Assembly (NCBI GenBank): GCA_902794895.1
Contig: CADBIY010000005.1
Location: 64,001-99,001 of the forward strand
DNA from: Candidatus Avelusimicrobium vaccinum
GTDB taxonomy: Bacteria; Elusimicrobiota; Elusimicrobia; Elusimicrobiales; Elusimicrobiaceae
Length of the DNA stretch: 35,001 bases
Direction of reading: 5' to 3'
Shown here: in pieces, positions 26,187 through 28,428 of the stretch
Numbering within the stretch: position 1 is the stretch's first letter
How the letters are laid out: every line of letters starts with the position of its first letter
Program-made: the position numbers and the translations under genes
The notes under the pieces: model-generated
Databases searched by the model: none
What the model saw: only the letters and a program-made list of their open reading frames with translations
What the model was told of the DNA's origin: nothing

Positions 26187-27317
26187 CTAAGGCATAATGA
26201 ACGTTTTAGTATATATGTAGCGGTTGGGTTTAATTTGCTGGCGGCGAACAATCTTAAAAACCAGTTCATCCCCCCTGAACACCTCATCATCTTCAAAAGC
26301 CAACTCTGCGTGTGCGTCCGAGTAAGGATGCGGAAATTTTTGGATATTTTTTGTCCATACTTCTTGTCCATTACGCTTTAACGTAATTTCCGACACGCGT
26401 TCATTATCTTGAAGGGAGGTTACTTGAAATCCGCGCACGTATAATCTCCGGGCAGGAACTTTTACCGACGGATTATAGTGTGCATCCAGCAAATAGGGAA
26501 CTGCTACCGACAAATTCACTCCGCTTCCGCGGCTTAAATGCGGATTATCTAAATCCAACAAATGTCCGTTATGCAAACCGACCACCTGCCATTGCTGCGT
26601 TCCCGGAATACGCTGTACAATAGGGGACCCACACTGTCCATTCCCTGTTACCGGGTTTTCCCACGTAGACCCATTAATATGATAGGGGCCATATAAATTA
26701 ATTCCTTCGGCATTTGTAAATTCACGCTGTACCGGTAAAAAATCATTCATAGAATAATTTCCGGTCGTGTACCCTACGGAATAGGCAGGGGCATTTAAAT
26801 CCGGCTCGCCCAATTCTAAAGGTTCCATTCCTTCCGGAATATCTTCCGGTTTAATAGGGGCTAAAGAAAGATCCGGCTCGTGCCAACCGGAAGTACCGTT
26901 TACTTCTACCTTAACTACCACCTCTTTTTCCTGGCCATCCCGTCCGCGAAAACGAACGACCCGTGTGTGGCCGGCTTCGCCCATAACATGATAGGCACTG
27001 GCAACCCACGTTCGTCCATAAGCAGAAAGTAAAAAGCCGGAAGCATAGGTCGGTAAATTTTCCTGCAAAACGCCCTCCGTATACCGAGGAAGAGAAATTT
27101 GCACAATACTGCGTTGCATACGAGGCAACAAAGAAGCAGGTGCTTTAAAATTTACACGGGCCTGACGGAAAATTTGACGTGTTACCTCTGTACTGACTTT
27201 GGGTAAATCTGCCGGAGCCCCTTTAATTAAAAAAGCAACACTCTTCGAAAGGTTTTGAGCATCCGCCGGAACAAACACCCATACAAATAAACTCAACAGA
27301 ATGAGAAAATGTTTCAT
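26187..27317 (-). CDS. Secreted chymotrypsin-fold protease homologue with Cys at the nucleophile position
   Basis: The 376-residue protein starts with a signal peptide (MKHFLILLSLFVWVFVPADA, cut near residue 20). A region typical of trypsin-like peptidases follows: ASGFLLSAYGRTWVASAYHVMG with the likely catalytic His near residue 109, EPDLSLAPI with the Asp near 150, and NGQCGSPIV near 229. Trypsin-like enzymes have GNSGSP at the last site, and here the nucleophile position is Cys (codon TGT at 26631-26633). The arrangement GxCGx is that of viral 3C-type cysteine proteases. A C-terminal beta-rich domain of about 90 residues follows. Whether it is active is unknown. The ATG has no clear ribosome site. 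Confidence 0.65.
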   Translation of the reverse strand: MKHFLILLSLFVWVFVPADAQNLSKSVAFLIKGAPADLPKVSTEVTRQIFRQARVNFKAPASLLPRMQRSIVQISLPRYTEGVLQENLPTYASGFLLSAYGRTWVASAYHVMGEAGHTRVVRFRGRDGQEKEVVVKVEVNGTSGWHEPDLSLAPIKPEDIPEGMEPLELGEPDLNAPAYSVGYTTGNYSMNDFLPVQREFTNAEGINLYGPYHINGSTWENPVTGNGQCGSPIVQRIPGTQQWQVVGLHNGHLLDLDNPHLSRGSGVNLSVAVPYLLDAHYNPSVKVPARRLYVRGFQVTSLQDNERVSEITLKRNGQEVWTKNIQKFPHPYSDAHAELAFEDDEVFRGDELVFKIVRRQQIKPNRYIYTKTFIMP

Positions 27318-27325
27318 ATATAATT

Positions 27326-27331
27326 AGTTTA
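27326..27331 (-). promoter_or_regulatory. Possible -10 box of the protease gene
   Basis: Minus strand TAAACT (27331-27326) ends 8 bases before the ATG at 27317. It is a weaker example of the short-leader pattern seen in other genes of the window; no TGn is present. Confidence 0.3.
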
Positions 27332-27334
27332 CCC

Positions 27335-27749
27335 TTTCATGCCCCCCAGAACAAGGGTCCAAAGGCCCATATCAGTACTAGGTCTAAATGGTGCAATAAC
27401 CCATCCCCCCGCATAGCTGGGGCTTTTCACAGGCGGGTAAAACCGAAGCAAAGCGGAGTCCTGAAAATGTCTTTATTCAGGACCTATTTCCCCTAAGGGC
27501 TAAAAACCCTTCTTAACTGCCTGCCTCGCGTGACTTTCCACGCTCTGTCCTTGCTGTTTTGTTGTTTATAAATAAAATGTCATTCCAAACTTGATTTGGA
27601 ATCTTCCACGCTTGTCGTTTTAAACGGCAACAATCACAAACTGCGTTGAAGATCCTGAATCAAGTTCAGGATGACTTTCTGATTTATCTTAACAACCTGT
27701 TCATCAGTAAAACCTTAACAGAAACCCAGCGCGGGGTTTTCAAGCATAA
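27335..27749. other. Gene-free stretch with many hairpins
   Basis: No credible reading frame is present. Several inverted repeats occur in a row: CCCC/GGGG near 27407; GTCCTGAA/TTCAGGAC (27458-27465 with 27476-27483); AAGGG/CCCTT near 27497; GCGTG/CACGC near 27530; the REP-like element at 27579-27675; and AAACCC/GGGTTT near 27722-27739. I looked for RNase P RNA, tmRNA, 6S and SRP landmarks and found none convincing. A small RNA is possible but unsupported. Confidence 0.5.
27579..27675. repeat. Palindromic REP/BIME-like intergenic element
   Basis: The 97-bp element begins GTCATTCC and ends GGATGAC. Its left half is a hairpin, ATTCCAAA-CTTGA-TTTGGAAT, and its right half is a second hairpin, ATCCTGAA-TCAAG-TTCAGGAT. 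The two halves are inverted copies of each other over about 33 bases (GTCAT, then AACTTGATT, GATCTTC). Similar GTCATCCTGAACTTG palindromes are scattered between genes in several bacterial phyla. Confidence 0.75.
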
Positions 27750-27800: not shown

Positions 27801-28316
27801 TTAGTTAGCAACCTGTGATAAAACATCCCGGTTAAATGCATCCAATTCATCCGCCGGTTCACTGACAAACCAATGATTATATGCTTCTGGCAAATGATCG
27901 GCAATATAGGACCCCAACACAATGGTTTTATCTTCGGCCCAACCTACCTGAATCGGTTTTTGCATTTCTTTAGCCAACATTTTAACTAATTCCGGATTTT
28001 TGGCTTCAAAAGCACGGTCAATATCTTCATTAGCGGCAAAATCATAAGCAAACCCTTCATAAAAACCAACCAAATGTTGCATATGCATCAATGCGTTTTC
28101 TTCTTTTTGCTCTGCAAAATATTTACGAAGGTTATTTATTGATTCTAATGCTTTCTTAACTGCCGCCTTCTCTTCGGGCGTTGTCTGGACTTTAGATATG
28201 TTTACATTGCGTGTAATTTTCATCTCCAGCCGTTTTTGTTGGTCGCTATTCACTTGGGCCAATACACAGGGCGCTGCAACTGCCAGCACGAGAATCATCA
28301 TCCAAATTTTTTTCAT
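27801..28316 (-). CDS. Secreted protein of unknown function
   Basis: The 171-residue protein has a clear signal peptide (MKKIWMMILVLAVAAPCVLA, cut near residue 20) and a mature part that looks mostly helical and acidic. No family is recognised. The mature sequence has KRLEMKITRNVNISKVQTTPEEKAAVKKALESIN and an aromatic-rich middle (HLVGFYEGFAYDFAA). The mature region has no cysteine. AAGGAG lies upstream of the ATG. It is a single-gene unit with a strong terminator, flanked by a 13-bp inverted repeat. The likely location is the periplasm or outside the cell. Confidence 0.85.
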   Translation of the reverse strand: MKKIWMMILVLAVAAPCVLAQVNSDQQKRLEMKITRNVNISKVQTTPEEKAAVKKALESINNLRKYFAEQKEENALMHMQHLVGFYEGFAYDFAANEDIDRAFEAKNPELVKMLAKEMQKPIQVGWAEDKTIVLGSYIADHLPEAYNHWFVSEPADELDAFNRDVLSQVAN

Positions 28317-28428
28317 ATTCTTTCTCCTTAGGTTAATTTAGTTTTCCTTCTTACTTATAATATATCCGTTCTTTTACTATAAAACAAGGGCCTTTGGACC
28401 TAGAATGTCCTTAGGCCTTAGGCCTAGA

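Follow-up and report, generated by a model that had tools for sequence, protein, structure and literature searches.

An exported trypsin-fold protein family of Elusimicrobiaceae with cysteine in place of the catalytic serine: a predicted cysteine endopeptidase

A gene on the minus strand of the window (the whole 35,001-nucleotide stretch analyzed here, from an Elusimicrobiaceae (Elusimicrobiota) genome of 1.45 Mb and 98.9% completeness) encodes a trypsin-fold protein with a cysteine at the position of the nucleophilic serine. The product is probably exported and active as a cysteine endopeptidase with the PA fold; the family would have arisen from a serine-type ancestor and multiplied into paralogues. 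According to a 2019 study, all nine PA-clan cysteine families are proteases of positive-strand RNA viruses (PMC6524800), and no report of a bacterial PA-clan cysteine protease was found in the literature searched, most subscription papers being outside its scope.

The first-pass annotation of this DNA had described a chymotrypsin-fold protease with Cys for Ser and suggested that it may represent a new lineage. Its reading of the nucleophile codon is borne out by the DNA, as the plus-strand letters ACA correspond to TGT (Cys) on the coding strand (Table 1). Both the assignment and the suggestion gain support from a cysteine kept family-wide, a confident fold model and alignment with solved HtrA and Spl proteases.

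Gene and protein layout

The only confident Pfam match of the window protein is to Trypsin_2 (PF13365; residues 92-235, 27.9 bits, E 4.5e-6), barely above the cut-off of 27.6 bits for that family. Residues 1-20 are the probable signal peptide, and a signal-peptide-like layout, as read from the sequences, is repeated across 26 aligned family members.

Table 1. Features of the protease gene and its upstream region (window coordinates)
Feature	Position	Strand	Basis
Whole gene, exported trypsin-fold protein with Cys nucleophile	26187..27317	minus	ORF, ATG start, 376 aa; Trypsin_2 E 4.5e-6
Putative signal peptide, residues 1-20 (MKHFLILLSLFVWVFVPADA)	27258..27317	minus	basic start, hydrophobic stretch, ADA/Q end
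Protease domain, residues 68-283, HtrA-like double beta-barrel	26469..27116	minus	AlphaFold2 model, HtrA1 match
Catalytic His110, codon CAT	26988..26990	minus	invariant in 26-member alignment A1; aligned to DegP catalytic His
Catalytic Asp149, codon GAT	26871..26873	minus	invariant in A1; aligned to DegP catalytic Asp
Nucleophile Cys229, codon TGT, within GNGQCGSP	26631..26633	minus	DNA; invariant in A1; Cys in 118/119 domains
C-terminal beta-rich domain, residues 284-376	26190..26468	minus	domain-alone model
Promoter-proximal element GGGCCTTTGGACCCTTG	27352..27368	minus	upstream alignment; genome pattern counts; 34 bases before ATG
Possible -10 box TAAACT, 8 bases before ATG	27326..27331	minus	upstream alignment; tentative

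Conservation of the cysteine nucleophile

The window protein was found in 16 of the 61 genomes searched (its own and 60 relatives), all 16 belonging to one genus. The nearest relative found, L029 from the uncultured Elusimicrobium sp. isolate RUG12698 (Elusimicrobiaceae), is 64% identical and carries the cysteine, as do all 30 family proteins whose sequence spans the nucleophile site. The homologue search thus ruled out homologues with serine only, the outcome that the first-pass annotation had named as contrary to its reading. In the alignment A1 the 26 members are mostly 16-33% identical to the window protein, and the invariant columns are M1, H110, D149, G182, G227, C229, G230, and G251. 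Since the triad columns are invariant in 26 members so divergent, their conservation is far beyond chance.

Once tandem arrays and further genomes had been added, a larger count was made with a protease-core profile and a threshold of 60 bits. Of the 119 non-redundant domains that reached this score, 118 have Cys at the nucleophile position and none has Ser. The profile derives from Cys members; Ser proteins nevertheless scored against it, up to 49.6 bits, and they make up most of the matches under 60 bits, the remainder being degenerate copies and a number of Cys domains from giant proteins. The sole exception among the 119, L024, has His at the nucleophile position and Ser at the position of the catalytic His. 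Asn replaces Asp in four domains of the set, a change that, by analogy, may be tolerable in cysteine proteases of the chymotrypsin fold; a His-Cys dyad suffices in the hepatitis A virus 3C and coronavirus 3C-like proteases (PMC6524800).

Predicted fold

The AlphaFold2 model obtained from 26 sequences has a mean pLDDT of 87.3 and a pTM of 0.84. Its nearest solved folds are HtrA proteases, with HtrA1 (3tjo) matched over 186 residues at Z 18.3 and 3.3 A. In profile alignments with DegP, Deg2, and SplB, the three catalytic residues of those enzymes, His, Asp, and Ser, coincide with His110, Asp149, and Cys229 of the window protein. The model and the alignments thus give the window protein the double beta-barrel and the His, Asp, nucleophile order of the PA clan. 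The aligned catalytic positions speak against a cysteine lying away from the other two residues, the second outcome that the first-pass annotation had named as contrary to its reading.

Modelled alone, the C-terminal domain is predicted with a pLDDT of 92.2. In the fold comparison its top match is a PDZ domain, from a carboxy-terminal protease of Vibrio, but at Z 4.6 this scores level with Ig-like and other folds, so that a PDZ-like identity is possible and no clear solved fold emerges at this best score. The earlier description of this domain as of unknown type agrees with a confident model that lacks a clear solved-fold match.

Comparison with known protease systems

The HtrA/Deg proteases (S1C; DegP, Deg2, HtrA1) share with the window family the protease fold, the order of the triad, export, and an extra C-terminal domain, and DegP aligns with the family at E 7e-7. 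The window family differs from them in many divergent copies, in a C-terminal domain that is not clearly PDZ, and in the nucleophile, as the serine that characterizes S1C is Cys in the window protein and in 118 of the 119 domains. The Spl/V8-type enzymes (S1B) are likewise exported trypsin-fold proteases, and SplB matches the family profile at E 2e-9; here too the serine is replaced by Cys, and the window family has extra N-terminal and C-terminal regions.

The viral 3C/3C-like and NIa proteases (C3, C30, C4) likewise have the chymotrypsin fold, on which His and Asp/Glu accompany a nucleophilic Cys (PMC6524800). The window protein has the trait by which the viral PA-clan cysteine peptidases (C3, C4, C30, C37) are recognized, a cysteine on this fold, but its gene is not part of a positive-strand RNA virus polyprotein: it is a bacterial chromosomal gene that has a start codon and an upstream element of its own and encodes a signal peptide. 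By both sequence and fold, the window family is closest to Ser proteases of bacteria and not to the Cys proteases of viruses. TEV NIa matches the family profile weakly (E 2e-4), and PF00548 is detected in three of the 26 members (best E 0.0055), versus 21 of 26 for Trypsin_2 (best E 1.9e-10).

Trypsin-like domains also occur in bacterial conflict and defence systems (Trypco-linked, RT-Protease, Lamassu LmuA), and PADLOC models match 12-13 of the 26 members with E down to 4e-10, which we read as a reflection of the shared fold. Unlike these systems, the window family is exported, and no partner genes were noticed in neighbourhoods that were viewed unsystematically.

Family extent and alternative activities

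In a profile search across the phylum Elusimicrobiota, the strong matches were concentrated in the genus g1, and those from other parts of the phylum were weaker. Six genomes were scanned in full (E <1e-20, plus a known dead copy), which gave 13 copies in G094, 12 in G031, 11 in G011, four in G076, three in the window genome, and one in G028. Tandem arrays of family genes are common, with seven neighbouring genes in L109 and four in L110.

In the sister genus g12 the Cys-protease domain recurs inside large proteins of 1,000-5,700 aa. The largest of these, L095 (490-17691; 5,734 aa), has five Cys domains and a start that reads like a response-regulator receiver domain; L096 (2-10660; 3,968 aa) has four domains, one of them with Ala, and the C-terminal end of L097 (1,371 aa) is of the same type as the C-terminal domain of the window protein. 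Giant proteins of 3,400-5,700 aa with one to five Cys-type trypsin-like domains each are represented by L095, L096, and, from a distant lineage of the phylum, L099:3-10355, and they are possibly self-processing. In L102:2-3322, another protein of the sister genus, one trypsin-like domain is of the Cys type and one of the Ser type.

Given that HtrA is the nearest fold, the protein might be an HtrA-like protease of envelope quality control that happens to use Cys and does not work on external proteins, and the other S1C-like protein of the genome, L030, is a short Ser protein with no obvious PDZ domain. However, tandem expansion, identities of about 20%, and copy numbers ranging from 1 to 13 are unlike a housekeeping protease, and we regard this explanation as unlikely. 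It appears improbable that the Cys acyl-enzyme serves the protein as an acyltransferase or transpeptidase that joins or cross-links exported proteins. Sortase-type transpeptidases also apply Cys-nucleophile chemistry in an exported protein, and a second substrate might be held by the additional conserved domain at the C terminus; nevertheless, the fold is that of HtrA endopeptidases rather than of sortases, and neither a partner substrate nor a sorting motif was found.

Cysteine content and degenerate copies

Cys229 is the sole cysteine of the window protein, 19 of the 26 aligned members have no further Cys past residue 30, and the nucleophiles account for five of the six cysteines in the relative of 5,734 aa. 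A structural disulphide role for Cys229 is unlikely, as the window protein has no other Cys. The first-pass annotation had also raised redox control. Cys229 might serve as a thiol switch that activates the enzyme under reducing conditions, as any catalytic thiol can be oxidised and the protein has a single Cys, but there is no second Cys in the window protein for a regulatory disulphide, and the probability of such a switch is low.

Family copies that have lost the cysteine (L024, L145, and L033/L132) have also lost the catalytic His, as would be expected if both residues were needed. One of them, L033:1087-2556 (minus strand, contig C4 of the window genome), is a paralogue that lacks all three catalytic residues and retains an open frame, that is, a dead protease. 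Dead copies exist both in the window genome (L033/L132) and in other genomes (L145 and L024), and the window protein might itself be a binding protein that keeps the fold without catalysis. This is very unlikely, since it has lost none of its three catalytic residues and the aligned family shows no variation at these positions, whereas in the dead copies Cys and His are lost together.

A sequencing error or a recoded Ser is refuted to near certainty by the Cys of L029 and of paralogues in many assemblies, and TGT encodes Cys. A genome-wide bias from Ser to Cys is also ruled out, because four trypsin-like proteins of the window genome (L030, L031, L032, and L034) keep Ser.

Evolution of the nucleophile

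The IQ-TREE phylogeny of 89 domains, built with the nucleophile masked, requires a total of only two Ser/Cys changes. One separates the main Cys set from the Ser domains; the other falls on L068, a lone Cys domain amid Ser domains of genus g15. In the FastTree phylogeny, 127 Cys domains and three dead copies fall into one clade with a support of about 0.90, although the underlying alignment was derived from the family profile and may favour this grouping. The nearest Ser domains in that tree are those in the giant proteins of g15. Outside g1 and the sister genus g12, the matches found in the phylum are nearly all Ser; the Cys exceptions are L068/L103 (g15) and L069/L099 (a distant lineage of the phylum), and L093 has Ala. 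The tree is unrooted, and we infer a change from Ser to Cys, within Elusimicrobiaceae and from a serine-type trypsin-like ancestor, because Ser is widespread in the PA clan.

A viral or mobile origin is unsupported by searches of phages, plasmids, and viral contigs: nothing in phages or plasmids matched the window protein, no relative of it was confirmed among viral contigs, and two other family members compared with viral and mobile sequences yielded solely a Ser-type haloarchaeal trypsin.

Upstream element

In the alignment of upstream regions, GGGCCTTTGGACCCTTG is common to family genes that stand alone or come first in an array, and is absent from genes inside arrays. The 17-base element (RGGYCYTTKKRCYCTNG) has 6, 7, and 21 sites in three genomes of the genus and none in the reversed control. 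It lies about 32-80 bases before the start codon, and an ORF start judged by eye to be signal-peptide-like follows 29 of the 30 sites examined (L162-L191). Because the element precedes such ORFs and is missing from the reversed control, the protease genes seem to be switched together with genes of other exported proteins, and the element looks like a putative operator or activator site of an export regulon. The short distance from the element to ATG suggests nearly leaderless mRNAs.

Next to the protease gene, positions 27801-28316 (minus strand) encode a small exported-looking protein of no known family, and a related element, TAGGTCCAAAGGCCC, is located at 28388-28402, upstream of this neighbour.

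Proposed mechanism and role

The proposed chain would exit the cytoplasm via its signal peptide and fold into the HtrA-like double beta-barrel, where Asp149 would orient His110 in the cleft and His110 would activate the thiol of Cys229. The thiol would then attack the peptide bond and form a thioester acyl-enzyme, and the C-terminal beta domain probably aids the binding of a substrate or partner. In evolutionary terms, the replacement of Ser by Cys would have occurred in a trypsin-like domain of Elusimicrobiaceae and been followed by multiplication into many exported paralogues.

Such an endopeptidase would most likely serve to cut extracytoplasmic proteins in a gut free of oxygen, a habitat that we infer because the RUG names presumably denote rumen genomes. 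The anoxic gut would keep the Cys229 thiol reduced, which we offer as a rationale and not as a result. Possible roles include protein feeding, envelope maintenance, and attack on neighbours.

A bolder reading, which we put forward tentatively as plausible rather than probable, is that these proteins form the first family of PA-clan cysteine peptidases from cellular life, independent of the 3C lineage of RNA viruses, and that it has spread, within the Elusimicrobiota covered by the profile search, into large sets of exported enzymes and into the giant multi-Cys-domain proteins of the sister genus, which possibly process themselves like viral polyproteins.

Significance

It has long been asked why, on a shared fold, cells use Ser and many RNA viruses use Cys. 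A bacterial lineage that has both versions provides natural pairs for testing what a switch of nucleophile requires, and the same pairs allow testing whether an anoxic habitat permits it. For the gut Elusimicrobiaceae, the family would add an uncharacterised set of exported proteases.
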